Under the pieces are notes generated by a model. That model was not told the DNA's origin and did no database searches. It worked only from the letters and a program-made list of their open reading frames with translations. A DNA stretch of 64,000 nucleotides from Mycobacterium sp. Root265. GTDB taxonomy: Bacteria; Actinomycetota; Actinomycetes; Mycobacteriales; Mycobacteriaceae. The position numbers and the translations under genes were made by a program. Position 1 is the first letter of the stretch. Each line of letters begins with the position of its first letter. The DNA lies in contig NZ_LMJA01000012.1 in NCBI RefSeq assembly GCF_001428895.1, positions 311,313 through 375,312 on the forward strand. Reading direction: 5' to 3'. Of the stretch, positions 19,303 to 36,927 are shown piece by piece.

Positions 19303-19338
19303 GCTGTACCGCGCCGTCACACCCCGGCGCGGTACAGC
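19303..19338. terminator. bidirectional hairpin between convergent genes
   Basis: Perfect 14-base arms (19303-19316 and 19325-19338) with an 8-base loop. The right arm lies inside the last codons of the minus-strand response regulator, whose stop is in the loop. It would end transcription from both sides. Confidence 0.7.
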
Positions 19339-20006
19339 CGTTCCGGGCGGCCGCCGCCGTACTTCAGACGCACCCTGGCCTCCCGCCGTTCCACCAGATA
19401 CTCCAGATAACGGCGCACCGTCGCGCGGGCCATCCCGGTCGCTTCCGCACAGGTCGTCGCCGACAGTTCGGCGCCGTCGGCGAGTGCGTCGCGCACCAGG
19501 TCCAGGCTTTCGTTGCTCAGCCCCTTGGGCGGCAACGGAACCGAGGGCGCGGCCCGCGGGTCGGCACCGATCGAGAAGACACTGTCCACCGCATCCTGAT
19601 CGGTCTTGCCGCCCGCCAGCCGCACCCTGGCGTAGTGCTGAATCCGTACCTTCAACTCGTCCAGATCGAACGGCTTGATCAGATACTGGGCGGCGCCGCC
19701 ACGCAAGGCCGCCTTGACGAAGGTGGCGTCACGCTCAGCGGTCACCACGATCGCGTCGACGTCGTCGCCGCGCTCACGCAACCGCTTGAGCACTTCGATT
19801 CCGCTCATGTCCGGCAGGTGCACATCGAGCAGCAGAAGATCGGGGGCCAGTTCGGCCACCATCTTCAACGCCTGTTCTCCGTTGACCGCTTTCCCCGCGA
19901 CCCGGAAGCCGTCCACCTCCTCGACGAGCTCCGCATGGATGCTCGCCACCATGAAGTCGTCATCGACTACCAGGACCGCGATGTCCCCGGTCTCACCCGG
20001 CCGCAT
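19317..20006 (-). CDS. CitB/DcuR-type response regulator
   Basis: A 229-residue two-component response regulator. The receiver domain is N-terminal (VLVVDDDFMV, then phospho-Asp in LLLLDVHLPDMSG, then Thr in VVTAERD, then Lys in YLIKPF). A linker and a C-terminal helix-turn-helix follow (TTCAEATGMARATVRRYLEYL), as in CitB/DcuR/DctR regulators. The ATG at 20006 is 4 bases after the stop of the lyase-family gene. Its partner is the CitA-like kinase at 20961-22589, one gene upstream. The expected target is the divergent tctCBA operon. Confidence 0.92.
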   Translation of the reverse strand: MRPGETGDIAVLVVDDDFMVASIHAELVEEVDGFRVAGKAVNGEQALKMVAELAPDLLLLDVHLPDMSGIEVLKRLRERGDDVDAIVVTAERDATFVKAALRGGAAQYLIKPFDLDELKVRIQHYARVRLAGGKTDQDAVDSVFSIGADPRAAPSVPLPPKGLSNESLDLVRDALADGAELSATTCAEATGMARATVRRYLEYLVERREARVRLKYGGGRPERLYRAGV

Positions 20007-20010
20007 GCAC

Positions 20011-20907
20011 TTACGATACGGGCTGCTCGGCTTCGCCCGAGCCACGGACGAAGCGCTTCTCGATATCGAAATACGCGTCGATGTCCATCAGCTCGTACCA
20101 CTCCTCGGGCTTGAGCATGTGCGGGCGGACGCTGGTGCTCTGCCCCTCGTCACGCAGGGTCTCCAGGGCTCGCCTGGCGGCGGCCGCCATCGAGAAGCGG
20201 ATCGGTCCGGGGTAGAGCGCCAGCGAGAACCCGAGCTTCTCGATCTCCGAGACGTGCAGGGTCGACATCGGCCCTTTTTCCTCGACCAGGGTCAGCAGCG
20301 GGGTGTCGATGATCGACATGACAATCTCGACGTCGTCCTTCTCCCGGACGCCGATGATCAGCGCGGAATCCGCACCGAGTTCGATGGCGCGCTTGGCGCG
20401 CAGTGCCGCGGCCTCGACGCCCAGTGTGTTGGCGGCGTCGGTGCGGGCGATGATGAGGAAATCGGGATCCTTGCGCGCCCACAGCGCGGCCTCGATCTTG
20501 CCGAGGTACTCCTTCTCGGTGACCACCGGGATCGGCACATCGAGCACGCCGCATCGTTTGGGCGTCACCTGATCTTCGAGTTTGATGGCGGCGACCCCGG
20601 AATTCTCGAACTCCTGGACCGCCCGGGTGACGTTGAGTGCGGTCCCGTACCCGGTGTCGGCGTCGAAGATGACCGGAATATCCACTGCACCTGCGATATT
20701 GCGCGCCACCTGTGAGCTCTCGGTCAGCGAGACCAGACCGACGTCGGGACGGCCCAGCAGACTGGCGGCCACCCCGTTGCCGGTGACGCTGATCGCCTGG
20801 AAGCCGGTCGCCTGCGCGAGCCGCGCCGAGATGCCGTCGAAGACGGAAGGGACCTGCGTGATCTCCGGTGAGTGCAGCAGTTCCCTGAGTTTCTGACGGG
20901 CGTTCAT
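20011..20907 (-). CDS. isocitrate lyase/PEP mutase superfamily enzyme
   Basis: A 298-residue TIM-barrel lyase. Landmarks are PSVFDGISARLAQATGFQAISVTG, the Mg-binding FDADTGYG, KLEDQVTPKRCG (the K-R-C-G loop of methylisocitrate/isocitrate lyases, here followed by Val rather than His) and IIARTDA. Such enzymes split 2-alkyl-malate/citrate-type acids or act on carboxyphosphonates. GGAG sits just upstream of the ATG. It lies between the kinase and the response regulator, so it probably metabolises the acid sensed by the pair and imported by TctCBA. Confidence 0.9.
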   Translation of the reverse strand: MNARQKLRELLHSPEITQVPSVFDGISARLAQATGFQAISVTGNGVAASLLGRPDVGLVSLTESSQVARNIAGAVDIPVIFDADTGYGTALNVTRAVQEFENSGVAAIKLEDQVTPKRCGVLDVPIPVVTEKEYLGKIEAALWARKDPDFLIIARTDAANTLGVEAAALRAKRAIELGADSALIIGVREKDDVEIVMSIIDTPLLTLVEEKGPMSTLHVSEIEKLGFSLALYPGPIRFSMAAAARRALETLRDEGQSTSVRPHMLKPEEWYELMDIDAYFDIEKRFVRGSGEAEQPVS

Positions 20908-20960
20908 CGATCTCCTTCGGTATGAGGTGAGATCAACGTCACGCCTGCACGTGTGGCGCG

Positions 20961-22589
20961 TCAATCTTGCGCTGAAACTTGGCGTTGTGCTCGTTGTGCT
21001 ATCGGGATCTGCGCGGTGAACACGGCACCGTGGTCGTTGTGCACGTCGACGCGGCCGCCACGCTGCTCGCACACGCTCTTGGCCAGCGCCAGACCGAATC
21101 CGCGGGTGCGGTCGGTGGCCTTGGTGCTGACGCCGCGTTCGAAGATGGTGCTCAAGATCGCGTCGTCGACCCCGGGGCCGTTGTCGCGCACCTCGATGGC
21201 GATGCTGTCATCGCGTTGCTCGATGCGCAGCCTGATCTCCGGGTCCGGTGCGCCCGCACAGGCTTCCAGGGCATTGTCGACGAAATTGCCGATCACCGTC
21301 TCCAGCGTGGTGGCGGTGTCCAGGCTCATTTCGCCGACATGTGACTGGTCGTCGACCACGAGGTCGACCCCGCGTTCGGAGGCCAGACTGCCCTTGGCCA
21401 CGACGAGCGCCGCCAGTGTGGTGTCGTCGATCCGCGCCGCGACCGCTTGGAGGAACTGATTGTGACCGGTCTGCACGTCGGTGACATACCGCTGGGCGCG
21501 CTGCACGTGGCCGAGGCGCAACAGGCCCGCGATAGTGTGCAAGCGGTTGGAGAACTCGTGGGTCTGCGCCCGCAGCGCGTCCGCGGTGTGCCGGGTGACG
21601 TCCAATTCGCGTCGCAGACCCCACAATTCGGTGCGGTCACGCAGGGTGACGACGGCGCCGATGACCCGGCCGCGGGTGGTCACCGGCATGCGGTTGAGCA
21701 CCAGGTGCCGGGCATCGGTGTCCAGGATGCGGTCGGTACTGCGGCGTGCGTCAGTGAGGGCGTCGACCACTTCCTGGCTCAGTCCCAGCTTTTCGAGTCG
21801 TTTGCCCACCGCGTCGCCGGGAAGACCGAGCAGTTCGATCGCCTCGGCGTTGACGATGGTGACCCGATGTTCGAGGTCGAGGCCGAGCACCCCTTCCCGG
21901 ATGCCGTAGAGCAGCGCCTCACGATGCTCTACCAGGCCGGCGATGTCCCGCGGTTCCAGCCCGAAGGTCTGCCTCTTGATGCGGTTGGCCAGCAGCACCG
22001 AACCCAGCAGTCCCAGCGCGGAGGCCACCCCCACATAGATCAGCAGGTCGGGGACGGCGCCGGTCAACCGTTCGGCCACGCTGGGCGAATAGCTGCCGAC
22101 GACGACGTAGCCGAGCCGCCCGCGGTTTTCGGGATCCAGGACGGCGACGTGCGCCTGTATCGACAGACGCCCGTCGGGCAGGGTGGCCGCGCCCACCCAC
22201 GCCCGGCCCGACAGCACATCACCGCTGGCGAAAGACCAGCGCGTACCGAGATGACTCGGATCCTGGCTGGCCAGCACATCACCGTCCAGATCGACGACCA
22301 CCACGAAGTCCACCCCGGACACGCTCTGCACCCGGGCAGCGGCCGGCGGGACCGCGCTCAGCGGAAGGTCACCGCGCAACGCGGAACGCACGATCCCGTC
22401 GGTCGCGAACACCTCGGCGAGCCCCAGCACCCGGTTGCCGGTCGTGCGCTGATAGTCGGTGCCGGACTGCACGTAGGTGATGGCGACGACCACAGCGAGG
22501 ACGGCCAGGATGATCACCGTCTGCAGCACCAACAGCTGCCGCGCCAGGGGCAACCTGCCGAGCCACCGATCCGCCGAGGGAGTCGACAC
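20961..22589 (-). CDS. CitA/DcuS-type sensor histidine kinase
   Basis: A membrane sensor of about 542 residues. An N-terminal transmembrane helix (VLQTVIILAVLAVVVAITYV) leads to an extracytoplasmic PAS/CACHE-like domain (about 45-175), a second helix (LLIYVGVASALGLLGSVLL), a cytoplasmic PAS domain (about 225-310), the H-box RAQTHEFSNRLHTI with phosphoacceptor His, and a HATPase domain (NFVDNALEA, DNGPG, GFGLAL). This is the layout of citrate/C4-dicarboxylate sensors. The start is uncertain among GTG codons; 22589 is used. Confidence 0.92.
   Translation of the reverse strand: MSTPSADRWLGRLPLARQLLVLQTVIILAVLAVVVAITYVQSGTDYQRTTGNRVLGLAEVFATDGIVRSALRGDLPLSAVPPAAARVQSVSGVDFVVVVDLDGDVLASQDPSHLGTRWSFASGDVLSGRAWVGAATLPDGRLSIQAHVAVLDPENRGRLGYVVVGSYSPSVAERLTGAVPDLLIYVGVASALGLLGSVLLANRIKRQTFGLEPRDIAGLVEHREALLYGIREGVLGLDLEHRVTIVNAEAIELLGLPGDAVGKRLEKLGLSQEVVDALTDARRSTDRILDTDARHLVLNRMPVTTRGRVIGAVVTLRDRTELWGLRRELDVTRHTADALRAQTHEFSNRLHTIAGLLRLGHVQRAQRYVTDVQTGHNQFLQAVAARIDDTTLAALVVAKGSLASERGVDLVVDDQSHVGEMSLDTATTLETVIGNFVDNALEACAGAPDPEIRLRIEQRDDSIAIEVRDNGPGVDDAILSTIFERGVSTKATDRTRGFGLALAKSVCEQRGGRVDVHNDHGAVFTAQIPIAQRAQRQVSAQD
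20983..21000. repeat. copy of the tct-promoter repeat within the kinase 3' end
   Basis: On the minus strand this reads as two tandem AGCACAACG units and shares 16 bases with 22613-22628 (plus strand). It lies about 80-95 bases before the lyase-family start, where a response regulator could act. It also encodes AQRAQR of the kinase, so coding coincidence is possible. Confidence 0.4.
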
Positions 22590-22612
22590 CTGTTGCACAC
22601 CCTTCGTCGTCG

Positions 22613-22638
22613 AGCACAACGAGCACAAGATTCGTTGT
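22613..22638. promoter_or_regulatory. candidate response-regulator site before tctC
   Basis: ACAACGA at 22616-22622 and TCGTTGT at 22632-22638 form a perfect 7-bp inverted repeat with a 9-base spacer in the kinase-tctC divergent region. Bases 22613-22628 also match the element at 20985-21000 in inverted orientation. It is well placed to be the CitB-like regulator's operator. Confidence 0.5.
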
Positions 22639-22716
22639 CAGCGCAAGCGTGACAGGCTCGTGTGGCAACCGTCACTGTTCCTGGGACAGCGTAGTGCTCA
22701 TCACAGGAGGTACATC

Positions 22717-23700
22717 ATGGGCCGACTCACCAAAAGCCTTGGAGTGACGGCAGCTGCCGTCACCGTCAGCCTCGTCGCCGCATGCTCGGGTGGCTCGAAC
22801 GCGGGTGGCGGCGACGGCGAACTCGGGCAGTTCCGGTACCTGGTGCCGAACTCGGCGGGCAGCGGCTGGGACACCACCGCGCGCACCGCCGCCAAGATCA
22901 TGGAAGACGACGGCATCGCCCAGCGGATCGACGTGTTCAACGTCGACGGCGCCAACGGCACCGTCGGGTTGTCCCGCCTCGTGGACGAGAAGAACAACGG
23001 CGAACTCGTCATGCAGATGGGCTTCGGTCTGGTGGCGGCCACGGTGTCGCAGTCGTCGCCGGTGTCCTTCGCCGACACCACCCCGCTGGTGAAGTTGCTC
23101 GACGAGTACCTCGCGGTGGTGGTGCCCGGTGATTCACCGATCAACAATTACGACGATCTGGTGGCGGCGTGGAAGAAGAACCCGCGGCTCAACGTCGGCG
23201 GCGGTTCTGCCATCGGCGGTGCGGACAACGTGGCGACACTGCAGATCGCCGCGGCCAATGACATTCCGCGCGGGGACGTCAACTACATCACCTTCGGCGG
23301 CAGCGGAGTACTGCCCGCCGTGCTCGGCGGCCAGGTCGATGCCGCCGTCACCAGCGCCGCCGACGTGGCCGAACAGGTGAAGTCCGGCGACCTCAAGGCC
23401 GTTGCGATCACGGGCGAGGAACGCGCCGATTTCCTGCCCGACGTACCCACCCTGACCGAAGAGGGAACCGAGGTCGTGGTCGCGAACTGGCGCGGCGTGG
23501 TCGCGCCTCCCGGGATCAGCGCGGAAACCCGGCAGGCCCTCATCGATGCCTTCGACAAGATGCATCAGAGCGAGGCCTGGAAGTCTGCCGTCGAGAGCAA
23601 CGGCTGGATCGACGCCTTCATGTCCGGTGACGAGTTCGGCACCTATCTGTCCGAGCAGGCCGGCGATATCAAGGCGGCCCTCGAAGGGGTCCAGCAATGA
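22717..23700 (+). CDS. tctC: tripartite tricarboxylate transporter, substrate-binding lipoprotein
   Basis: A 327-residue binding protein. The signal ends in a lipobox (VAAC) near residue 27, followed by a Gly/Ser-rich linker. The mature part has the TctC/Bug family pattern (YLVPNSAGSGWDTTARTAA, then LVAAWKKNPRLNVGGGSAIGG, then DVPTLTEEG, then WRGVVAPPGIS). It captures a tricarboxylate or similar acid for TctAB. ACAGGAGGT precedes the ATG with ideal spacing. It opens an operon divergent from the two-component system. Confidence 0.94.
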   Translation: MGRLTKSLGVTAAAVTVSLVAACSGGSNAGGGDGELGQFRYLVPNSAGSGWDTTARTAAKIMEDDGIAQRIDVFNVDGANGTVGLSRLVDEKNNGELVMQMGFGLVAATVSQSSPVSFADTTPLVKLLDEYLAVVVPGDSPINNYDDLVAAWKKNPRLNVGGGSAIGGADNVATLQIAAANDIPRGDVNYITFGGSGVLPAVLGGQVDAAVTSAADVAEQVKSGDLKAVAITGEERADFLPDVPTLTEEGTEVVVANWRGVVAPPGISAETRQALIDAFDKMHQSEAWKSAVESNGWIDAFMSGDEFGTYLSEQAGDIKAALEGVQQ

Positions 23701-24212
23701 CCTCTGCGGTCGGCACGGCACGCTCCGCGCTGGCCGACAAGTCCGAGTTTCTGGTTGCCGCACTTCTTTTCGTTCTCGGCGTGGTGTCCTTGATCGACGC
23801 CGCGATGCTGACGGACAATGCCGCCAGCGTCGGTCCGCTCAGTTCGTCGGTGTTCCCCACCGTCGTCGGGCTGATGTTGCTCGGCGTCGGGGCCGCGCTG
23901 CTGGTCGACGTGCTGCGTGGTGGCCGTGGCGAGATGGAGGGCGGCGAGGACGTCGACCTCGATCAGCCCACGGCGTGGGCGCCGTTCTTCGCCGTCGGTG
24001 GGTTCTTCCTGGCCAATGCGGTGCTGATCGAATCGGTCGGGTGGCCCCTCACCGGGACTCTGCTGTTCTTCGGCAGCGCCGTCGCGCTGGGCAGCCGCCG
24101 GTTCGTCATGACGCTGGTCGTGTCGGCCGTCATCGCCTTCGGCAGCTATCTGCTGTTCGTGTACGCCCTCGGCGCCTACCTGCCCGCCGGGATCCTGCAG
24201 GGAATCATCTGA
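23697..24212 (+). CDS. tctB: tripartite tricarboxylate transporter, small membrane subunit
   Basis: A 171-residue membrane protein with four hydrophobic segments (about 18-38, 50-75, 95-115 and 120-165), typical of TctB, which partners the large TctA subunit. The [17 protein letters not shown] segment is characteristic. The ATG overlaps the tctC stop by 4 bases; tctA follows 1 base after its stop. Confidence 0.92.
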
Positions 24213-24213
24213 C

Positions 24214-25767
24214 ATGGAATCGATGACCCTGCTCATGGAGGGCTTCGCCGCGGCGATGACGCCCACCTACCTGATGTTCGCGCTGATCGGCGTGCTGCTG
24301 GGCACCGCGGTCGGTGTGCTGCCCGGGATCGGGCCCGCGATGACGGTGGCGCTGCTGCTCCCACTCACCTTCTCGCTGGACGCCACCGGTGCGATCATCA
24401 TGTTCGCCGGCATCTACTACGGCGGAATGTACGGCGGCTCAACGGCTTCGATTCTGTTGAACACGCCAGGTGAGGCCTCGGCAATGATGACGGCCATCGA
24501 GGGCAACAAGATGGCCAAGTCCGGTCGGGCCGCTCAGGCGCTGGCCACCGCGGCCATCGGATCGTTCGTCGCAGGCACGATCGCCACCGGCCTGCTGGTG
24601 CTGGTGGCCCCGCTCGTCGTCGACTTCGCCATCTCGATCACGCCCGCCGACTACTTCGCCCTGATGGTGGTGGCCTTCGGTGCGGTGACGCTGGTGCTGG
24701 GCAGTTCGCGCATCCGCGGGTTCGCTTCGCTCGGTATCGGGTTGTTCATCGGTCTCATCGGTATCGATGGCTCGACAGGTCAGGAGCGCTTGACCTTTGG
24801 CCTGCCCCACCTGATGGACGGCGTCAACGTCATCGTGGTCGCGGTCGGCATCTTCGCGCTCGGTGAGGCGTTGTGGATTGCGCTGCATCTGCGACGCAAC
24901 CCTCCGGGCATCATCCCGGTGGGCCGCCCGTGGATGGACAAGTCGGACTGGAAGCGATCGTGGAAGCCGTGGCTGCGCGGCGCGGCACTGGGTTTCCCGT
25001 TCGGCGCCATGCCCGCCGGTGGCGCGGAGATCCCGACCTACCTGTCCTACGTCACCGAACGCAAGCTGTCGAAGCACCCCGAAGAGTTCGGCAAGGGGGC
25101 CATCGAGGGGGTCGCCGGACCCGAGGCCGCGAACAACGCCTCCGCGGCGGGGGTGCTGGTACCGCTACTGACACTGGGGCTTCCGACCTCGGCGACCGCC
25201 GCAGTGTTGTTGGCCGCGTTCCAGCAGTACGGTATCCAGCCCGGCCCGCTGCTGTTCGACAACGAACCCGGCCTGGTGTGGGGATTGATCGCCAGCCTGT
25301 TCATCGGCAATGTGCTGCTGCTCGCGCTCAACCTGCCGCTGGCACCGCTGTGGGCCAAACTGCTGCGCATCCCGCGTCCGTACCTGTACGCCGGCATCCT
25401 GGTGTTCGCCGCCGTCGGCGCCTACGCCGCCGACGGCTCCAGCATGGGCCTGTATCTGCTGCTGGTGATGGGGCTGCTCGGAGTCGTGATGCGCCGGTAC
25501 GGGTTACCGGTTGTGCCGGTGATCATCGGGGTGATCCTCGGTCCACTCGCCGAGTTGCAGCTGCGGCGCGCCATGCAACTGAGCGGCGGCGATCCCGCGG
25601 CGCTGGTCGCATCCAATCTGTCGATCGGGCTGTACGCGCTGCTGGGCGTGGCATTCGTGGTGCCGTTGATCCTGCGCTGGCGCAGCGCGCGGTCACAGAC
25701 CGGCGCGGATGCTCCGGTGCCGGTCACGGAGGAGAAGGTGCCGGCCGGCCCGGAACATGACCGCTGA
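24214..25767 (+). CDS. tctA: tripartite tricarboxylate transporter, large membrane subunit
   Basis: A 517-residue permease with about 12 transmembrane segments. The two conserved TctA motifs are present: [20 protein letters not shown] near residues 39-58, and a second Gly/Pro-rich loop [20 protein letters not shown] at about 260-280, plus [25 protein letters not shown]. It is the ion-driven channel subunit of the TctCBA importer. Confidence 0.95.
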
Positions 25768-26967: not shown

Positions 26968-26986
26968 TTAGGCTAGGCTAAGCTCT
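26968..26986. promoter_or_regulatory. IdeR/DtxR-type iron box upstream of the gltB-like gene
   Basis: TTAGGCTAGGCTAAGCTCT matches 15 of 19 positions of the mycobacterial IdeR consensus as I recall it (TTAGGTTAGGCTAACCTAA), including the whole TAGGCTAA core. It lies about 110 bases before the gltB-like start, in the only gap large enough for that operon's promoter. Whether IdeR would repress or activate from here is not visible. Confidence 0.6.
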
Positions 26987-27096
26987 TCGCGAGCACCGGA
27001 GCCTGCGGTCACCGCACGGGCCGAGCGGGATCCCTCAGTGTCGAGAACCCATGCGGTGCGATCTGTGCATCTGCAGCGTTGAGGAGGTACCGCGTG

Positions 27097-30000
27097 ATGG
27101 GGCTGCATGATCCGGATCTGGAAAAGAACAGCTGTGGTGTCGGCTTCCTGACCCGCAAGGACGGCCGCCAGACCCACGACGTGATCCAGATGCTGCACGA
27201 TGCTTTGTGCGCCGTGCCCCACCGCGGCGGCATGTCCTCCGAGGGCGTCGGTGACGGCGCCGGCGTCAACCTCGACCTCTCGGTCCGCTTCTTCGCCGAT
27301 GTGACCGGCCGGCCCGACCTTGCCCTCGGACAGTTCGGCGTCGGCAACTTCTTCCTGCCCAACGACCCGGACTTCCACTCCGAGGCCGAACGGGTCATCG
27401 AGGACGCTTTGACCGCACGCGGTCTGCGCATCCTGCTCACCCGCGACGTGCCGGTCAACAACACGGCCATCCGCCCCGCCGCCGTCAAGTACCAGTCCCC
27501 CATCAGGCAGTGGATCTTCACCGCCGACCGACTGTCCGACAAGGTGATTCACGAAGCGCTCATGGCCATCGAGGCCGTCGCGTACACCCGGGCGGAGCTC
27601 TCGGGCCTGTACCCGCTGTCGCTGAGCGCCCGCACCCAGGTGCTCAAGGGCCGGTTGAACTCCAATGAGGTGGTCCCCTACTTCGACGATCTGTCGGATC
27701 CGCGGATGGAAGTCCACTCGATGTTCTTCCACACCCGCTTCTCCACCAACACCGCGCCCAACGCCACGATGGCGCAACCCTTCCGATTCATGGCGCACAA
27801 CGGCGAACTCAACACCGACAAGAAGAACCGGCTGTCGGACAACGCCATCGCGCTGGCCCGCAACCGGGCCATCATCCGTCCGGTCGGCCAGTCCGACAGC
27901 TGCCGACTCGATCAGACCCTGCAGAACCGCGTCCTGGAGGACGATCTGGATCTGGTCACCGCGGTGGTCGCGATGATGCCGCCGGCCTGGGAGAACGACA
28001 CCACGCTCTCACCGCAGGTGCGGGCCATGCTGGAGTACTTCAGCCTCTACGAGGAGAAGAACGACGGCCCGGCGGCGCTGATCTTCGGTGACGGCACCTA
28101 CATCGGCGCCCGGCTGGACCGGCTCGGACTGCGCCCGCTGCGCACCGTGGAGACCGACGAGTATCTGGGCGTCATGTCCGAGGCCGGGCAGGTCAACTTC
28201 GCACCCGGACAGGTGATCAAGCGGGGCCGCATCGAGGCAGGCGGCATGCTGTACTTCGACCACCGTGAGCAGCGGTCCTACGGCACCACCGAGGCCCTGG
28301 AAATGCTTGCGGCCAAACATGATTACCAGGACATGCTGGCCGTCGCACGGGTAAATCTGGCGGCGCTGCCCGCCGTGCCGCCGGAGAGTCAGCTGTCCCC
28401 CGCCCGCTACAACGGGGACCTCAACCGCCACCAGCGCTACGTCTGTTACTCGATGAGCCAGGAAGACTTCAAGTTCCTGATGGACCCGATGCTGACCACC
28501 GGGCAGGAGAAGATCTCCGCGATGGGCTACGGCGCGGCCATCAACGCGCTGTCCAACCACGAGGGCGGTATCGCCCGGTACTTCTCCCAGCGTTTCGCCC
28601 AGGTCACCAACCCACCCCTGGACAGCATCCGCGAGGCCGACGGCATGACACTGCGGGTCGCGTTGGGCGCCAAGCCCAACAGCGGCGCCCAACCCGCCCC
28701 GCAGATCGTGATCCCGTCACCGATCCTCGGTCACCTGGACATGCTGAGCATCCGCGATCAACAGCACACCCCGGTGCGGCGCTTCGGGATGCGCTACCGC
28801 GTGGACCTCACCGATCGCCATGCCAACGCCGACGCACTGGTCGCCGCCATCGACGCCCTGTGCGATGACATCGAGGCCTATGCCCGCGAGTCCGGCGGCA
28901 TCGCCGTCATCTCCGACCGGCACATCGAAAGCGGTCTGGCACCGATACCGGTCATCATCGCCGTCTCGGCCATCAACCAGCGGCTCATCGAACAAGGCCT
29001 GCGGCTGCGGGTTTCGGTGATCGCCGAGAGCGGCCAGCTGGCGTCCTCGCATCACATCGCCACGGTCCTCGGTTTCGGTGCCTCCGCGGTGTATCCGCTG
29101 GCGGTCCAGATGCGGGCCGAGGAAAAGTTCGGCCCCGATGAGACATTGGTGACCGCCGCCTACAAGCGGTTCGCCAAGGCCGCCGAGAAGTCACTGATGA
29201 AGACCATGGGCCGGGTGGGTCTGTGCACCGTGGAGAGCTACATCGGCGGTGAATTCTTCGAACCCAGCTACCTGGGCACCGGGGACCCGGTGTTGCACCG
29301 CTACTTCCCGAACGTGGTGTCCCCGGTCGGCGGTGTCGGATTCGACACGCTGGCAGCCGCTGTCGCCGAATGGCACAACCACGCGCTGTCGGTCACCGGC
29401 GAGAAGGACGTGCCCCTGCTCGGCCTGTTCAAGGAACGCGCCGAGGGGTCCGGGCACTCCTACGGCACCACCGCCGTACGCGGATTCGTCGACATGACCG
29501 AGGAAGCCATCTCCTTCGGCGACGAGGGGCGCCCGGAGAACCCGGGCATGACCGACCCGGCGTTTCTGCGGTCGCTGCCCCTGCACCAGCTCGAAGGCGC
29601 CTTCGGACTCGACGATGAGGCCTACCAGCACAACAGCTTCGAGGAGATGACGCCGCGGGCGATCAACAGCTTCGACATCACCCCGGGCTACCGGCACTTC
29701 GTGTTCGCGATGAACGCCGAGCGGGCCCGCCGCCCCGCCGCCCTGCGCGATGTCCTGGCGCTGCCGGCAGACGTCAACTTCCTACACACCGCCGACGAGT
29801 TCCGTTCCGAACTGGGGCAGTTCGCGAGGTTCGGCAACAACAGCTTCCAGGTCCGCGGCCTGACCTGCGTTCAGGTCGGCGATGAGTTCACGCTGCGCCT
29901 GGGCCACAGCGCGCAGCGGCTGGAGGCACTCGCGGAATCACTGTTGCGCCGCTTCGGCGCCGATATCGTCGACCACGAGATCATCGTGGACCGGTTGTGG

Positions 30001-32526
30001 ATCCGCGCCCGGGGCGCCGCCCGCGACTACCTGACGATGGTGCAGACCGCACCGGACTCGATGCCACTGGCCGCGGTGCAACCCGCCAGCGAGATCGCGG
30101 CGACGCTGACATCGGGTGCGATGAGCCACGGCGCCCTGGTGGCCTCGGCGCACGAGGCTGTTGCGCACGGCACCAACATGGTGGGCGGACTGTCCAACTG
30201 CGGTGAGGGCGGCGAGCACATCACCCGGTACGGCACCATCCGCGGCTCCCGAATCAAGCAGTTCGCCTCCGGCCGGTTCGGGGTGTGGGCCGGCTACCTG
30301 GCCGACCCGATGCTGCGCGAACTGGAGATCAAGATCGGCCAGGGCGCGAAACCGGGTGAGGGCGGCCAGCTCCCGGCCCCAAAGGTCACCGTGCAGATCG
30401 CGGCCGCCCGCGGCGGGACACCCGGCGTGGAACTGGTCTCTCCCCCGCCGCACCACGACACCTATTCCATCGAGGATCTCGCCCAACTCATCCACGACTG
30501 CAAGGCCGCCCGGGTCCGGGTGGTCGTCAAGCTGGTCTCCAGCGAAGGCATCGGCACCATCGCCGTCGGCGTTGCCAAGGCCGGTGCCGATGTCATCAAT
30601 GTGGCCGGCAACACCGGCGGTACCGGTGCTGCGGCCGTCACCAGCCTCAAGTACGCCGGGCGTTCCGCCGAGATCGGCGTCGCCGAGGTGCATCAGGCCC
30701 TGGTGGCCAACGGAATCCGGCAGAAGGTCGTGCTGCGCTGCTCGGGTGCACACCAGACGGCCAGCGATGTGATCACCTCGGCGCTGCTCGGCGCGGACAG
30801 CTTCGAGTTCGGCACCACCGCACTGATGATGCTCAAGTGCGTGATGGCCAAGAACTGCAACATCAAATGCCCGGCCGGGTTGACCACCAACCCCGAGGCC
30901 TTCGACGGTGACCCGCGCGCGCTGGCGCAGTATCTGCTGAACATCTCCCACGAGGTGCGCGAGATCCTCGCCACGCTCGGCATGCCGTCGCTGGCAGCCG
31001 CCCGCGGCCGCAGCGATCTGCTGCATCTGCTCGACCACCCGTCGAGCATCGGCAGGCTGGACCTGCGCGCCATGCTGCAGGTCGCCAGGGGTTTCGTGCC
31101 GGAGGATCCGATCTACATGGAGAAGGACTACGCGGTCGACGACGCGTTCCTGGCCCAACTGGATCTCGACGGTGTCGAGATGACACCGGTGGCGTTGACG
31201 AACCAGAACAAGAGCGTCGGCGGACAGCTGGCCGTCGACATCGAACGCAAATTGAACCACCAGGGCGCCAGTGGGACCGCGGTCGCGGTCGACGTCCGTG
31301 GCCGGCGCTACCTGACACCCGACAGCGTGGTGATCACCACCACCGGATCGGCGGGCCAGAGCTACGGGGTGTTCTGCAACGACGGCATGACGATGACGCA
31401 CACCGGAACCTGCAATGACGGCGTCGGCAAGAGTCAGTGCGGCGGCACCATCGCGGTGCGCTCCCCCGGCGGCGGGTCGGCCCGCCCCGGCGGCAATGTG
31501 CTGATCGGCAACTTCGCGCTGTTCGGGGCCTCCGGCGGCCGGTTGTTCGTCGAAGGTGAAGCCGGCGACCGGTTCGCGGTACGCAACTCCGGGGCCACCG
31601 CCGTGGTCGAGGGTGTCGGAGAGTTCCTGTGCGAGTACATGACCAACGGCGCGGTGTTCAACATCGGCGGCTTCGGCAAGGGCGTCGCCAACGGGATGAG
31701 CGGCGGCTTCCTCTACCAGTACGACCCGGACGCCGAACTGGCCGCCAAGGTCAGCGCCGACTCGGTGCTGCTGGCCCCGATCAGCGAGGCACCGTTCCAC
31801 GAGGTGGCTGCGCGCACCATGCTGCAGTGGCACCTCGACGCGACCGGATCGGCGAAAGCCGCTGCTCTGCTTCAGGATTGGGCGGTCACCCGGCTGCAGG
31901 TCAGCTACGCGATGCCGCGGGCACTGCTGCAGTACCAGGATGCCGAGGCGATCCTGGCGGCCAAGACCCGCAAGGAACTGCTCGACGAGTTGGCCTCCGC
32001 GCTGGCCGGCTACCAGGTGCACAAGTTCAAACGCTCTTACCGCCACGGTGAGACGGTGCTCGGCGGCGCGGTGCCCGGCTACGGTGAGACCGACACCGAG
32101 GCCATGTTCGCGCTGCTGAACACCTACACCGTGCTGAACATGGCACAGCGCCTCGCGCTCACGCGACTGCCCGGCGTCACCGACGTCGCCGATCCGCGGG
32201 TCGCCAAGATGGTGCGCAACCTGGTGCTCACCGAGGACTTCTTCCTGATCCAGAAGCTGCAGCGCTTCGCCCGGGAAGCTATCGACGATTTCAGCGACGA
32301 GAACCTGGCCGTATTCATCGCCGACAAACGCATCACCGACTACAAGGATGCGCTGGCCCAGCGAAACGTGTTGTCGATGGACAGCCCGGGAACCTACGGC
32401 TGGATCCTGTACCAGAACGCCAAGAACGTCGACATGATCGGCCGGCTGCCCTCGTTCGAGGAACTGTTTGCCGCGCAATCGGTTCCGGACGTGGTGGCGT
32501 CCCTCACCTCGCTGGAGACCGCGTAA
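27097..32526 (+). CDS. gltB: divergent glutamate synthase large subunit (GltB-like)
   Basis: An 1,809-residue homologue of GOGAT alpha, which makes glutamate from glutamine and 2-oxoglutarate; bacterial GltB is usually about 1,500. The order is Ntn glutaminase (Cys13 in NSCGVGF, then HTRFSTNT, then AHNGELNT), central domain, FMN/synthase barrel (SNCGEGGEH, IGQGAKPGEGGQLP, SPPPHHDTYSIEDLAQ), iron-sulphur Cys1248/1254/1258, and GXGXG beta-helix. About 300 C-terminal residues are extra. Differences from canonical GltB are Cys spacing x5/x3 instead of x5/x4, and GNTGGTGA where GHDGGTGA is usual. Start at ATG 27097 or GTG 27094 after GAGGAGG. No GltD follows; a diflavin reductase does. Confidence 0.9.
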   Translation: MGLHDPDLEKNSCGVGFLTRKDGRQTHDVIQMLHDALCAVPHRGGMSSEGVGDGAGVNLDLSVRFFADVTGRPDLALGQFGVGNFFLPNDPDFHSEAERVIEDALTARGLRILLTRDVPVNNTAIRPAAVKYQSPIRQWIFTADRLSDKVIHEALMAIEAVAYTRAELSGLYPLSLSARTQVLKGRLNSNEVVPYFDDLSDPRMEVHSMFFHTRFSTNTAPNATMAQPFRFMAHNGELNTDKKNRLSDNAIALARNRAIIRPVGQSDSCRLDQTLQNRVLEDDLDLVTAVVAMMPPAWENDTTLSPQVRAMLEYFSLYEEKNDGPAALIFGDGTYIGARLDRLGLRPLRTVETDEYLGVMSEAGQVNFAPGQVIKRGRIEAGGMLYFDHREQRSYGTTEALEMLAAKHDYQDMLAVARVNLAALPAVPPESQLSPARYNGDLNRHQRYVCYSMSQEDFKFLMDPMLTTGQEKISAMGYGAAINALSNHEGGIARYFSQRFAQVTNPPLDSIREADGMTLRVALGAKPNSGAQPAPQIVIPSPILGHLDMLSIRDQQHTPVRRFGMRYRVDLTDRHANADALVAAIDALCDDIEAYARESGGIAVISDRHIESGLAPIPVIIAVSAINQRLIEQGLRLRVSVIAESGQLASSHHIATVLGFGASAVYPLAVQMRAEEKFGPDETLVTAAYKRFAKAAEKSLMKTMGRVGLCTVESYIGGEFFEPSYLGTGDPVLHRYFPNVVSPVGGVGFDTLAAAVAEWHNHALSVTGEKDVPLLGLFKERAEGSGHSYGTTAVRGFVDMTEEAISFGDEGRPENPGMTDPAFLRSLPLHQLEGAFGLDDEAYQHNSFEEMTPRAINSFDITPGYRHFVFAMNAERARRPAALRDVLALPADVNFLHTADEFRSELGQFARFGNNSFQVRGLTCVQVGDEFTLRLGHSAQRLEALAESLLRRFGADIVDHEIIVDRLWIRARGAARDYLTMVQTAPDSMPLAAVQPASEIAATLTSGAMSHGALVASAHEAVAHGTNMVGGLSNCGEGGEHITRYGTIRGSRIKQFASGRFGVWAGYLADPMLRELEIKIGQGAKPGEGGQLPAPKVTVQIAAARGGTPGVELVSPPPHHDTYSIEDLAQLIHDCKAARVRVVVKLVSSEGIGTIAVGVAKAGADVINVAGNTGGTGAAAVTSLKYAGRSAEIGVAEVHQALVANGIRQKVVLRCSGAHQTASDVITSALLGADSFEFGTTALMMLKCVMAKNCNIKCPAGLTTNPEAFDGDPRALAQYLLNISHEVREILATLGMPSLAAARGRSDLLHLLDHPSSIGRLDLRAMLQVARGFVPEDPIYMEKDYAVDDAFLAQLDLDGVEMTPVALTNQNKSVGGQLAVDIERKLNHQGASGTAVAVDVRGRRYLTPDSVVITTTGSAGQSYGVFCNDGMTMTHTGTCNDGVGKSQCGGTIAVRSPGGGSARPGGNVLIGNFALFGASGGRLFVEGEAGDRFAVRNSGATAVVEGVGEFLCEYMTNGAVFNIGGFGKGVANGMSGGFLYQYDPDAELAAKVSADSVLLAPISEAPFHEVAARTMLQWHLDATGSAKAAALLQDWAVTRLQVSYAMPRALLQYQDAEAILAAKTRKELLDELASALAGYQVHKFKRSYRHGETVLGGAVPGYGETDTEAMFALLNTYTVLNMAQRLALTRLPGVTDVADPRVAKMVRNLVLTEDFFLIQKLQRFAREAIDDFSDENLAVFIADKRITDYKDALAQRNVLSMDSPGTYGWILYQNAKNVDMIGRLPSFEELFAAQSVPDVVASLTSLETA

Positions 32527-32530
32527 CACG

Positions 32531-34270
32531 ATGAAGATCGCCTACATTCCCCAAGACGCCCCGTTCAACGAGGACCAGCGCGCCTGGCTGTCCGGTTTCC
32601 TGGCCGGCCTGCACTCCCGGCTGGCGATGAACGTCGCGCCACCGCCGGCCATCCCGGGTGATCAGTCCGCCCCGCGTCCCGCGCTGCGCATCCTGTACGG
32701 CACCCAGACCGGCAACGCCGAGGGTGTCGCCAACGACGCGGCGGCCGCGGCCAAGGCACAGGGTTTCGACGTGAAGGTCAGCGGACTCGACGAGATCGAA
32801 CTCGACGAGTTCGCCGGCCTCAAATACGTGCTGATCGTGACGTCGACCTACGGCGAGGGCGAAATGCCCGACAACGCCGAACTGTTCTGGGAGGCCCTGT
32901 CGGCGTCGACCGCCCCGCGCCTGGAAGGGGTGTCCTTCGGGGTGCTGGCGCTCGGCGACACCAGCTATGACGAGTTCTGTCAGGCCGGAAAGCTTTTCGA
33001 CACCCGCCTCGAGCAACTCGGTGCCGCGCGGGTGGCGGCCCGCGCCGACTGCGATGTCGACTACGAAGCCCAGGCCGCCGAATGGATCCAGTCCGCCGTC
33101 TCGGCGCTGGTACCCAGCTCCGGGGCCAGCGGCGCACCCAGCACGCCGCCGCCGAGCGCGGTGGCCCGTTCCGGGTGGACCCGCAAGAACCCGTTCGTCG
33201 CGGACGTCGCCGTCAACCGTCTGCTGTCGGGGCCCGGCTCGGACAAGGAAATCCGGCATTTCGAGTTCGATCTGGCCGACAGCGGGATCGAGTACGTCGC
33301 CGGCGACGCGCTGGCCGTCATCCCGGAGAACGACCCGGTGCTGGTGGACGCCATCGCCGGTCATTTCCGGGTGTCTGCCGACACCCTCGTCAGCGATGAG
33401 CCGCTCGGAGATCTGCTGGGCCACCGGTACGAGATCAGCGCGCCGTCCAAGGATCTGCTCGGCGAGGTGGAACGCCGCGCGGAGAACCCCGAGCTGTCCC
33501 ACGTGCTGCGCGGCGGGGTGAAGGAGACCCTGGAGCGCTGGCTCTACGGCAAGGACATCCTCGACGTACTGAGCATCGCCGGGGACGATCTCAGCCTCGA
33601 GGAGTTCATCGGTTTGCTCAAACCGCTTCAGCACCGGGCATATTCGATCTCGTCGAGCGCGCTGGCGCATCCGGACCGGATCCACCTGACGGTGGCCAGC
33701 GTCCGCTACCACAACAGCGGACGGATGCGCGGCGGAGTCTGCTCGACGTTCCTGGCCGACCGCGGCACGGCGTCCAAGATCTTCCTGCAACCCAACAAAT
33801 CGTTCCGGGTGCCGGCCGATGACAACGCTCCGATGGTCATGGTGGGCCCGGGCACCGGGGTGGCGCCGTTCCGCGCGTTCCTGCAGGAACGCGAGCAGCG
33901 TGGCGCCGGCGGACGCAACTGGCTGTTCTTCGGCGATCAGCACCGCGAGCACGACTTCGCCTACGCCGACGAGATCTCGGCGTGGCAGGACTCCGGACTG
34001 CTGAATCGGTTGGAGCTGGCGTTCTCCCGGGACCAGGCCGAGAAGGTCTACGTGCAGACCCGGATGCGCGAGCACGGCAAGGAACTGTTCGGCTGGCTCG
34101 AAGAGGGCGGCCACTTCTACGTCTGCGGCGACGCGACGCGGATGGCCAAGGATGTCGACAAGGCGCTGCACGATGTCGTCGCCACCCACGGCGGGATGGA
34201 CGCCGACGGTGCCGTCGAGTACGTCAACACACTGAAGCGGGAGAAGCGGTACGTTCGCGATGTGTACTGA
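32531..34270 (+). CDS. CysJ-like NADPH diflavin reductase
   Basis: A 579-residue FMN/FAD reductase moving electrons from NADPH to a partner protein. After about 60 residues comes a flavodoxin domain (ILYGTQTGNAEG, TSTYGEGEMPDNA, LGDTSYDEFC), then an FAD-binding domain with the connecting region (HRAYSISSS; RGGVCSTFLADR) and an NADPH domain (VGPGTGVAPFRAF, then FGDQHREHDF, then VCGDATRMAKDVD). It ends RYVRDVY, like the CysJ terminus. It begins 4 bases after the gltB-like stop, so it is probably that enzyme's or the HemS-like protein's electron donor. No sulphite reductase haemoprotein is near. Confidence 0.92.
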   Translation: MKIAYIPQDAPFNEDQRAWLSGFLAGLHSRLAMNVAPPPAIPGDQSAPRPALRILYGTQTGNAEGVANDAAAAAKAQGFDVKVSGLDEIELDEFAGLKYVLIVTSTYGEGEMPDNAELFWEALSASTAPRLEGVSFGVLALGDTSYDEFCQAGKLFDTRLEQLGAARVAARADCDVDYEAQAAEWIQSAVSALVPSSGASGAPSTPPPSAVARSGWTRKNPFVADVAVNRLLSGPGSDKEIRHFEFDLADSGIEYVAGDALAVIPENDPVLVDAIAGHFRVSADTLVSDEPLGDLLGHRYEISAPSKDLLGEVERRAENPELSHVLRGGVKETLERWLYGKDILDVLSIAGDDLSLEEFIGLLKPLQHRAYSISSSALAHPDRIHLTVASVRYHNSGRMRGGVCSTFLADRGTASKIFLQPNKSFRVPADDNAPMVMVGPGTGVAPFRAFLQEREQRGAGGRNWLFFGDQHREHDFAYADEISAWQDSGLLNRLELAFSRDQAEKVYVQTRMREHGKELFGWLEEGGHFYVCGDATRMAKDVDKALHDVVATHGGMDADGAVEYVNTLKREKRYVRDVY

Positions 34271-35087
34271 TGGACAGCGCTGCAGCTCCTGCCCCGCGAG
34301 ACGGCTGAACGCCGGTAGCCGAGAGATCGGCGCGGCCCTGCCCGCCCTGGGCACCGTGGTGTCCTGCACCGCCAATGATGCTGCACTGCTGAGTCATACC
34401 GGTGAATACGCCACACCCGCACACCCCGGCGAGGCGCTGATCTGCGGTCACGAACAGATCAGCGTGCGCCTCGGCGCGGGCGTGACCGGCTATCTGACGC
34501 CGCAGGCCCTGACGCTCACCGGTAGCTTCGGCACCCATCGGTCCCACCTCACGCCGATGTCGGATCCGATTGTTGTCAAGGGTCTTTCGCTCGCGCCGCG
34601 CGGTCCGCAGATGGCGTTCACGCCCGAGGACTGGGTGGGTGTGGACTGGAACGACACCGACCAGATCGACCACCTCGATTCGCTGACATCCGAGCGGTAC
34701 CGGGTGCTGCCGTTCACCGGGGCCCGCAAGGTCGACCCCAGGGTGCTGCCGCATCTGCTGGTGTATCTGGTCGAGCAGGACGTGGAGTACACGGTCGCGG
34801 TGCCGGGCGGCGGGTGCGTGCAGTTGCATCGCGGCCGGGCGGCAATGGCCGATACGTCGGGTCCCGCCGTGGCGGTGATCTTCGGTGCGGCCCGGTATGC
34901 GCTGGATCCGGCGCAGGTCGGCGAGTGCTGGGTGACCTCACTGCACGGTGCGGCCGGCCCGACCGCCGCGATCGAGATGTACGACCACAGCCGGCGGTGC
35001 GTGACGATGCTGACCCTCACCGGGTCGGTGTGCGGGCGCGCCCACGACGACTGGCAGGCCATCGCGAGGTCCCTGCCAGGCCTGTGA
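34260..35087 (+). CDS. HemS/HmuS/ChuS-like heme-handling protein
   Basis: A 275-residue protein that looks like a shortened hemin-degrading factor. The N-terminal half has the pattern ALPALGTVVSCTANDAALLSHTGEY, as in HemS. The C-terminal half has EYTVAVPGGGCVQLHRG, CWVTSLH, AAIEMYDHSRRCV and a terminal DDWQAIARSLP, echoing the IQIHTGPV...W...FDA...W..L pattern of that family. Members bind cytosolic heme and some open the ring given reductant. Its ATG overlaps the diflavin reductase by 11 bases. The match is from memory of family patterns and is divergent. Confidence 0.65.
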   Translation: MCTDGQRCSSCPARRLNAGSREIGAALPALGTVVSCTANDAALLSHTGEYATPAHPGEALICGHEQISVRLGAGVTGYLTPQALTLTGSFGTHRSHLTPMSDPIVVKGLSLAPRGPQMAFTPEDWVGVDWNDTDQIDHLDSLTSERYRVLPFTGARKVDPRVLPHLLVYLVEQDVEYTVAVPGGGCVQLHRGRAAMADTSGPAVAVIFGAARYALDPAQVGECWVTSLHGAAGPTAAIEMYDHSRRCVTMLTLTGSVCGRAHDDWQAIARSLPGL

Positions 35088-35481: not shown

Positions 35482-36927
35482 TCAGCGGCTCGCAGGTCCG
35501 CGCCGGCGCAAGATGATCGGCAACCCGTCGGCCGGCGTCGGGCCCGTTCCCCAGCTGAGACGGGGCCGGTACCCCGACCGCACCCGCCAGTCGAACTGCC
35601 GCAACAGCTGCACCATGATCGCCTTGACGCTCATGTCGGCGAACTGCTGCCCGATGCACTTGTGCACCCCACCCCCGAACGGCGCAAAGGCGTATCGGTG
35701 CACCGGAGCCGCGTCGGCGCCGTCGGTGAACCGGCTCGGGTCAAACCTGTCCGGATCCGGCCACCAATCAGCCAGCCGCATCGATGCATAGACGTTGATG
35801 GCCACTTGGCTCTTTCGCGGGATGTGATGTCCGGCGACCACCGTGTCCTTGATGGTCTGGCGGAACAAGGTTCCCGCAGGTGCATACATCCGCAGGATCT
35901 CCTTGACGGCGGCATCCAGCAATGGAGACTGCTGCAGCCCGTCCAGGGTCGGTTCACCCTCATACGACAGCGACTCATCACGAAGAGCGTCCTGCCACAA
36001 CACATTTCGGCCGAGTTCGTAGACCAGCATCGAGATCGCGATCGCGCTGGTATCGTGCGCGGCCATCAGCAGGAAGATCATGTGATTGACGATGTCGGCG
36101 TCGGAGAAACTCTCGCCGTCCTCGCTACGGCTGCGGCACAGCATCGAGAACAGATCCGTGCCCTCACCGGACCTGCGACGGGGCAGTTGCGCACCGAAAT
36201 AGCGCTCCAGCCGTTCGCGGGCGCGCAGGCCGCGAGCCCATGTCCCGCCCGGTACGTCGGCCCGGATGATCGCCTGACCGCCACAAACGGTGTCGTGGAA
36301 GTCGGCTGAGAGCTGGGCCGACTCCGCGCCGAGGGCCGCACCGACAAAGACCTCGGCGGCCTGTTCGAGCAGCAGGTCCTTGACCGCGGTGTAGAACGGG
36401 AACCGTTGCGCCGAGCCCCAATTCGTGACGGTCCGCGCGATCCCGGGTCGCATCAGTGCCAGGTACCCCTCGAGCGCGGTGCGCGTGAAGGACTGCTGCA
36501 TGATGCGGCGGTGATCCCGGTGCTCGTCGAAGTCCAGCAACATGATGCCGCGATGGAAGAACGGCCCGATGACCGGCGCCCAGCCCCTGGTGCTCGAGTA
36601 CGCCTTGTCCTTGTTGATCCACACTGTTTCCAGAGCCTCCGGGCCCATCAGCGTGACGATGCGGAAGCCGACGCCACCGGCCCAGGACACCGGTCCGTAG
36701 CGGTCGTAGCGCGCGCGGGCGAACTCCAGTGGGTCGACCAGTGAGCTCATGATGTGTCCGATGACCGGAAATCCGTAGTTGCCCATCACCGGACGGAGTC
36801 CGGAACCGTCCGGCGGCCGCGCCAGCGCCCGTTCCCGGCTCGGGAAGCGGGACGTCACCCCTGCCGCCGCGTACTGCAGGCGAACCTTCGCCGCGGCGGC
36901 CGCCTCGGGTGCGATGACCCCGGTCAC
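35482..36927 (-). CDS. cytochrome P450
   Basis: A 481-residue heme monooxygenase. The I-helix oxygen-activation motif is AAHDTSA, the ExxR motif is EILR, and the heme-ligand loop is FGGGVHKCIG with the Cys thiolate. There is no N-terminal membrane anchor, so it should be soluble and need ferredoxin partners, none of which is adjacent. It overlaps the upstream SDR gene by 4 bases, forming an operon with the SDR and an unknown protein under the TetR at 38510. Steroid- or terpene-like substrates are possible, but this is inference. Confidence 0.95.
   Translation of the reverse strand: MTGVIAPEAAAAAKVRLQYAAAGVTSRFPSRERALARPPDGSGLRPVMGNYGFPVIGHIMSSLVDPLEFARARYDRYGPVSWAGGVGFRIVTLMGPEALETVWINKDKAYSSTRGWAPVIGPFFHRGIMLLDFDEHRDHRRIMQQSFTRTALEGYLALMRPGIARTVTNWGSAQRFPFYTAVKDLLLEQAAEVFVGAALGAESAQLSADFHDTVCGGQAIIRADVPGGTWARGLRARERLERYFGAQLPRRRSGEGTDLFSMLCRSRSEDGESFSDADIVNHMIFLLMAAHDTSAIAISMLVYELGRNVLWQDALRDESLSYEGEPTLDGLQQSPLLDAAVKEILRMYAPAGTLFRQTIKDTVVAGHHIPRKSQVAINVYASMRLADWWPDPDRFDPSRFTDGADAAPVHRYAFAPFGGGVHKCIGQQFADMSVKAIMVQLLRQFDWRVRSGYRPRLSWGTGPTPADGLPIILRRRGPASR

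Follow-up and report, generated by a model that had tools for sequence, protein, structure and literature searches.

Organization of the locus

This analysis concerns a three-gene unit in a 64,000-nucleotide (nt) stretch of the 6.67-Mb genome of Mycobacterium sp. Root265, hereafter the window. The unit consists, in order, of a predicted iron box, a gene for a protein resembling the large subunit of glutamate synthase (GltS), a gene for an NADPH diflavin reductase (DFR), and a gene for a HemS-like protein, all on the plus strand and tightly spaced (Table 1); the first of these proteins is termed GltB-like below. Four bases separate the GltB-like stop from the DFR start, and the HemS-like ATG at 34260 overlaps the DFR end by 11 bases, just as a first-pass annotation made from the window sequence had described. 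Because promoter and terminator scans of the locus gave no signal exceeding shuffles, it is these intergenic gaps that point to co-transcription of the three genes. The longest GltB-like open reading frame (ORF) runs from TTG 27079 to 32526, with alternative starts at GTG 27094 and ATG 27097; either of the latter, downstream of a GAGGAGGT site, is probably a better start than the TTG. Among the named loci described below, the closest GltB-like proteins are those of Mycolicibacterium frederiksbergense and Mycolicibacterium sp. P9-22, each with 97% identity.

Table 1. Coordinates of the unit and of its features within the window
Feature	Position	Strand	Description
DtxR/IdeR-type box TTAGGCTAGGCTAAGCTCT	26968..26986	+	15/19 consensus match
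GltB-like glutamate synthase large subunit	27097..32526	+	1,809 aa; Pfam domains and alignment to solved GltS
Cys13 codon	27133..27135	+	aligned to the first residue of chain 1ea0
Family-specific insertion	29776..30051	+	residues about 894-985; poorly conserved, absent from canonical GltB
Cluster-cysteine motif CVMAKNCNIKC	30838..30870	+	residues 1248-1258; CX5CX3C
Family-specific C-terminal extension	32017..32520	+	residues about 1641-1808; absent from canonical GltB
DFR, CysJ-like NADPH diflavin reductase	32531..34270	+	579 aa; flavodoxin, FAD-binding, and NADP-binding domains
HemS-fold protein	34260..35087	+	275 aa; Cys2, Cys8, Cys11, Cys223, Cys247

The GltB-like protein and the diflavin reductase form a fixed pair

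Searches of 298 genomes from the genus and 301 from the family found GltB-like proteins in 23 and 62, respectively, the latter covering 10 of 31 genera; in a phylum sample only 3 of 396 genomes are positive, all in the family of the window and one of them its own genome. The genus and family searches amount to 82 other genomes (23 + 62, with two shared and the own genome removed). Sixty-two were retrieved, and the 20 unretrieved ones all belong to genera already represented. The 62 retrieved and 23 named loci make 85 loci in 10 genera, or 75 distinct loci once ten duplicate pairs are merged. DFR directly follows GltB-like in 74 of the 74 evaluable distinct loci (the remaining one is ended by its contig), and the pair is adjacent in all 23 named loci. 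The trio described in the first-pass annotation recurs only in part, since HemS-like lies directly 3' of DFR in 38 of the 75 distinct loci. The other 37 include one contig end, one fragment, and one weak trace. The fixed unit is the GltB-like/DFR pair and not the trio, and HemS-like is an accessory gene missing from about half of the loci.

The pair also occurs on plasmids. A search of 72,556 plasmid records returned 210 matches to the large subunit, 201 of them at <60% identity; the other nine match at 62.7 to 70.4% identity over nearly the full length and belong to Shinella (2), Sinorhizobium (1), Neorhizobium (1), Ketogulonicigenium (4), and Tsukamurella (1). DFR adjoins GltB-like in all five plasmid loci examined, four of which are alphaproteobacterial, out of eight such records. 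In midpoint-rooted trees the alphaproteobacterial copies fall amid actinobacterial ones, a placement with moderate support in the GltB-like tree (90 and 92) and weak support in the DFR tree. Since this placement is seen in both trees, it suggests that the pair was transferred between phyla. Pairwise distances of GltB-like and DFR co-vary strongly (r = 0.957 over 39 loci), a value reached in none of 2,000 permutations.

A tblastn search with one GltD query, taken from locus L061, detected no GltD near the pair in any of 85 actinobacterial or 5 plasmid loci, upholding the earlier description of a glutamate synthase-like gene without GltD; the sole match, in L202, covers 132 amino acids (aa) and lies at an annotated dienoyl-CoA reductase. 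Canonical GltB is encoded twice in the Root265 genome itself, and a GltD-type ORF (Fer4_20 plus Pyr_redox_2) adjoins each copy.

The loci lie in many different neighborhoods that vary by lineage, and because these neighborhoods differ so widely the unit appears to act as a self-contained block. The genes behind the trio in Ketogulonicigenium encode an AraC regulator, a TonB siderophore receptor, and siderophore ABC proteins. A PF01497-type periplasmic binding protein is encoded behind the unit in 3 of the 6 g129 loci (profiled for two of these). Upstream of the unit in the window, a tripartite tricarboxylate transporter set (TctC, TctB, and TctA) with a sensor kinase and a response regulator occupies positions 19317 to 25767, and a TctC/TctB/TctA set with sensor kinase and response regulator genes also precedes the module in locus L023. 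Just 3' of the unit, a cytochrome P450 gene (PF00067) on the minus strand (35482 to 36927) is oriented toward it.

Conservation and divergence of the GltB-like protein

All four Pfam domains of the GltS large subunit (GATase_2, Glu_syn_central, Glu_synthase, and GXGXG) are present. Residue 1 of 1ea0, with which Cys13 aligns, is presumably the glutaminase nucleophile. The three cluster cysteines are kept in all 84 loci holding the region (10 duplicates among them), always with the spacing CX5CX3C, compared to CX5CX4C in eight canonical GltB proteins. This canonical set, drawn from Actinomycetota, Bacillota, and Pseudomonadota, has 343 invariant columns when aligned with 19 family members, and 236 of these are identical in every one of the 19; the glutaminase domain keeps 59 of its 82, the central domain 28 of 45, the synthase domain 104 of 137, and the GXGXG domain 34 of 50. 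The motifs HNGE, QGAKPGEGGQLP, SPPPHHD, and GGTGA are intact in 19 of 19 members and YSIEDLAQLI in 18. According to passages of a GltS review, Met479 of A. brasilense GltB is on the electron path from GltD (PMC8097209). The same column holds Met476 in the window protein and Met in all 19 members, while the residues that follow change from canonical G-[TDNY]-D-[TA]-[PA] to G-[YF]-[GD]-[ANL]-A.

Divergence of the family is considerable. Near-invariant family-specific changes occupy 41 canonical-invariant columns, four being deletions and one adjoining Met476; the GltB equivalog model NF008730 of NCBIfam is narrowly missed (1044.8 versus a cut-off of 1047); and a quick tree parts 39 family members from the eight canonical GltB proteins by a very long branch, which carries a long-branch warning. 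Such differences would fit a protein that, still driven by DFR, catalyzes another reaction of a related type, either a reductive amination or an amide-nitrogen transfer, such as one for a siderophore precursor. We regard this as quite unlikely, given that the glutaminase and synthase motifs are intact and that, among clustered flanking genes, most of them unprofiled, HemS-like is the only group seen to be widely common across genera.

The C-terminal extension is a candidate docking part for the reductase. It is helical in a low-confidence model (mean pLDDT 48.2, alignment of 21).

The diflavin reductase is CysJ-like

DFR has CysJ proteins as its nearest solved structures. Its match to the cysJ model TIGR01931 covers nearly the whole model and extends to the final position, in line with the first-pass description of a reductase that ends like CysJ, at 607.7 bits against a cut-off of 668.15. 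The broader model PRK06214 ("sulfite reductase subunit alpha") is passed at 461.2 versus 432. The motif SR..K.YVQ, which we take to be an NADPH-binding feature of the diflavin reductase superfamily, is present in the window DFR and in 83 of 84 other loci.

These similarities, namely the nearest structures, the nearly full-length cysJ match, and the PRK06214 score, are what one would see in an ordinary CysJ that delivers electrons to sulfite reductase or to acceptors of another kind, in which case its adjacency to GltB-like would be incidental. Yet the pairing is fixed in two phyla, the cysJ score stays under its cut-off, and the genome has no CysI above cut-off, the best TIGR02041 match being a weaker one of 115 bits versus 756.55. 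Two further diflavin reductases of the genome, with 52% and 43% identity to DFR, also fall outside the module DFRs in a midpoint-rooted tree. DFR as a plain CysJ was set aside for lack of a CysI above cut-off, and we consider this explanation highly implausible.

Truncated DFR copies of three other loci fall among or beside the module DFRs in the same tree. A second, downstream copy reduced to the FAD and NADP domains is found at L063:2235-3407 and at the same place in L196, and it groups with the module DFRs. In some Mycolicibacterium, a P450-diflavin reductase fusion of ~1,036 aa lies 3' of the pair (L019:16292-19399, also near L022 and L026).

The upstream iron box recurs across the family

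The consensus used for box scoring, TTAGGTTAGGCTAACCTAA, is what we take to be the DtxR/IdeR-type consensus. Consistent with the IdeR-like box reported in the first-pass annotation, the site ahead of the unit has the highest 19-mer score in the window, the runners-up reaching 12. Its 14-base core TTAGGYTAGGCTAA occurs once in the window with at most one mismatch, against 0.00 expected from 100 shuffles, and the somewhat wider core TTAGGYTAGSCTAA has a single exact occurrence in the 6.67-Mb genome. Only two genome sites lie within three mismatches of the consensus, one 5' of a siderophore-interacting protein gene and the other 5' of a ferritin gene; the window box has four. In passages of PMC7174319, TTAGGTTAGGCTAACCTAA is also given among DmdR1 sites.

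The best 19-mer within 300 bp upstream of GltB-like was compared with those of 677 other gene starts from the same loci. A box of at least 12/19 precedes GltB-like in 72 of 85 loci but only 44 of the 677 controls. With duplicates merged, 62 of 75 loci score at least 12 and 53 of 75 at least 13, a score found at 17 of 677 controls. The idea that every family member is iron controlled was rejected, since genus g127 is without a box.

The HemS-like protein is an accessory homolog of HemS with conserved cysteines

The resemblance of the third protein to HemS passed a profile check. The window protein scores 40.8 bits against the Pfam HemS cut-off of 24, the same model matches 23 of 24 HemS-like members at E 0.01, and a profile of these 24 members matches solved HemS over most of its length (E 3.1e-31), so a spurious match was rejected. 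Taken singly, the window protein matches the Protein Data Bank (PDB) more weakly (best solved HemS, E 0.0013), and it matched no NCBIfam family. The family as a whole is firmly a true HemS homolog; the case for the window protein alone against the PDB is weak.

In an alignment of 24 selected members with three HemS proteins whose operons carry a heme or iron-chelate uptake annotation, the column that we take to be the heme-ligating His196 of HemS holds His in 3 of 3 heme-operon proteins but in only 1 of 24 HemS-like ones, the other 23 having A, T, D, E, or Q. The window protein has Asp137 there and His138 next to it, which may reflect a one-residue shift in its own subclade only. Cys2, Cys11, and Cys247 are present in 24 of 24 HemS-like members, Cys223 in 22, and Cys8 in 20; the three heme-operon proteins have Cys at none of these five columns. 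In one other HemS-like alignment Cys2 is nearly but not fully invariant. The Arg70 and His93 columns are common to all HemS-like proteins and the three heme-operon HemS. An ordinary heme protein was set aside on account of the missing His and the fixed cysteines, and heme turnover by HemS-like is doubtful; the earlier suggestion that DFR supplies a heme-handling protein is accordingly weak. Our tentative alternative, held at slightly less than even chances and the least certain part of our reading, is a redox or metal site that is ligated by cysteines and receives electrons from DFR, perhaps in a metal or Fe-S redox protein serving siderophore iron. A structure prediction of HemS-like (alignment of 14) had a mean pLDDT of 36.4.

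Within the genus sample, a HemS-like match (a fragment in one case) was seen in 16 genomes, and all of these are among the 23 GltB-like-positive ones of 298 searched; where present the gene is immediately 3' of DFR. A box of at least 12 precedes all 38 HemS-like-bearing loci, HemS-like is found in none of the 13 loci with a box below 12, and in Ketogulonicigenium siderophore uptake genes follow the trio. Relatives of HemS are reported, in passages of PMC12670364, to degrade heme in vitro with NADH. All this would suit an iron-release module, in which DFR mainly feeds HemS-like to free iron from heme or siderophores while GltB-like moonlights or gives a side product. Weighing on the other side, 37 of 75 distinct loci lack HemS-like whereas GltB-like and DFR are always kept together, and the heme-operon His is lost in nearly all members; we think an iron-release module unlikely.

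Remnants of the third gene were also seen. Short fragments resembling HemS-like lie behind DFR in L030 and L141 (Mycobacterium sp. 141, one species), which were scored as lacking HemS-like, and in L017 and L154. A profile search behind DFR in 44 loci scored as negative or fragmentary for HemS-like yielded nothing beyond a weak trace (E 5e-4), which lies in L017 and L154, two copies of the Nocardia cyriacigeorgica locus. The fragments suggest loss of the third gene. In 4 of 10 g123 loci (L157:10328-10774, L158, L159, and L160), a free flavodoxin stands directly behind DFR at the HemS-like position; that of L157 has 149 aa and matches PF00258 (one of the four profiled).

A putative iron-sparing glutamate synthase

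Glutamate synthase is one of the main routes by which nitrogen enters metabolism. The reading that we favor, and consider rather more probable than its competitors taken together, is that the pair constitutes an additional glutamate synthase, repressed by iron, that draws on a flavodoxin-type reductase instead of the iron-sulfur subunit GltD and so costs less iron. The fixed pairing, the co-varying distances, the recurring box, and the lack of GltD nearby support a redox module behind an iron box with DFR in GltD's place. GltD has two [4Fe-4S] clusters and GltB one [3Fe-4S], as described in passages of PMC8097209; because DFR would replace both GltD clusters, the iron per active unit would fall from 11 to about 3 atoms. 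In its iron-sparing response B. subtilis lowers its iron-containing GltS (passages of PMC9938188), a precedent that leads us to read the module as an iron-repressed GltS isoenzyme with DFR as the donor.

In the proposed mechanism, a DtxR/IdeR-type repressor would occupy the predicted box and repress the operon when iron is plentiful, and the operon would be expressed when iron is low. Electrons from NADPH would enter DFR at its FAD, move on to the FMN in the flavodoxin domain, and travel by way of the three-cysteine cluster (presumably [3Fe-4S]) to the FMN of the GltB-like subunit, where glutamine-derived ammonia and 2-oxoglutarate would give glutamate. Where present, HemS-like could also take electrons from DFR; with its HemS fold minus the usual heme His and plus cysteines, it would likely hold a metal or an Fe-S cluster and help release iron that is imported bound to a ligand, for example a siderophore. 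We infer this electron path, the GltB-like/DFR complex, the iron response, glutamate synthesis, and the role of the third protein from sequence.

Several observations weigh against an iron-sparing glutamate synthase. The cluster cysteines are kept, so the GltB-like enzyme would not be iron free. The box falls below 12/19 in every one of the 12 g127 loci and in one g123 locus, and in 13 of 85 loci it scores exactly 12/19, a value reached or exceeded by 44 of 677 controls; the box survey covered actinobacterial loci. Because all 12 loci of g127 are without a box, iron control appears to be usual but not universal across GltB-like/DFR loci. Mirror-tree correlation such as that of the two proteins arises from shared inheritance too. 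Of the canonical invariants, 107 of 343 are altered in at least one family member, and for this reason an enzyme with an altered substrate is possible. Invariant columns are few in the C-terminal extension (27 of 168) and the insertion (1 of 92), the two family-specific segments at which a new reductase might dock, which are thus weakly to modestly conserved, and no GltB-like/DFR interface was visible in the structure models, which are of low confidence. Lastly, the GltB-like match of genome G603 is split over two separate frames. The redox module proposed in the first-pass annotation, iron regulated and with DFR in place of GltD, is thus strengthened by the pairing, the co-variation, and the recurring box and weakened by the boxless g127 loci.

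A bolder extension of this reading, possible but doubtful, would make the module a third, diflavin, electron-input class of glutamate synthase, an iron-sparing isoenzyme that many Mycobacteriales carry and that has passed between them and Alphaproteobacteria. Its reductase would also drive a HemS-fold cluster protein, converted from heme binding to cysteine ligation, that reduces imported ferric ligands, and one iron-repressed reductase would thereby serve both nitrogen assimilation and iron release. If true, the module would be a direct case of iron saving in a central step of nitrogen assimilation, beside normal GltS copies, and a new modular route for feeding electrons to GltB; HemS-like would show a heme-handling fold rebuilt as a cysteine-based redox protein.

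Comparison with known systems

The first-pass annotation knew of no described system with this set of genes, and no description of the GltB-like/DFR pair or of the trio was found among the matches listed from a full-text search of openly licensed papers. The word "diflavin" is absent from the GltS review PMC8097209, and glutamate synthase is mentioned once, as rv3859c, in passages of a transposon sequencing (Tn-seq) study (PMC7058343).

The module shares with the NADPH-dependent GltBD enzyme a four-domain large subunit with a glutaminase Cys, an FMN synthase domain, and three cluster cysteines, and a pyridine-nucleotide reductase encoded next door. The solved enzymes used for comparison (7mfm, 6s6s, 2vdc, and 1ea0) are, we assume, from B. 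subtilis and A. brasilense. Unlike GltBD, the GltB-like protein is ~300 residues longer, has the CX5CX3C spacing, and lies behind an iron box, and its reductase is a flavodoxin-type diflavin enzyme instead of the two-cluster GltD.

Ferredoxin-dependent GltS, for which we take 1llw and 1ofd of Synechocystis as representatives, likewise has a large subunit without GltD and receives electrons from a small carrier, and flavodoxin can often stand in for ferredoxin. In contrast to that enzyme, GltB-like is without the residues of 1llw between 914 and 933, presumably the position of the ferredoxin loop, and a dedicated NADPH reductase is part of its operon; a ferredoxin-type GltS was set aside because the alignment to 1llw has no such loop. 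DFR has the flavodoxin-FAD-NADP architecture of CysJ (6efv) but differs in its partner, which is GltB-like rather than the siroheme protein CysI, and in its score below the cysJ cut-off. HemS-like belongs by profile to the same family as HemS/ChuS (2j0p, 7qxv, and 4cdp), with which it has the Arg70 and His93 columns in common, and departs from them in having lost the heme-operon His in 23 of 24 members and fixed Cys2, Cys11, and Cys247 instead.

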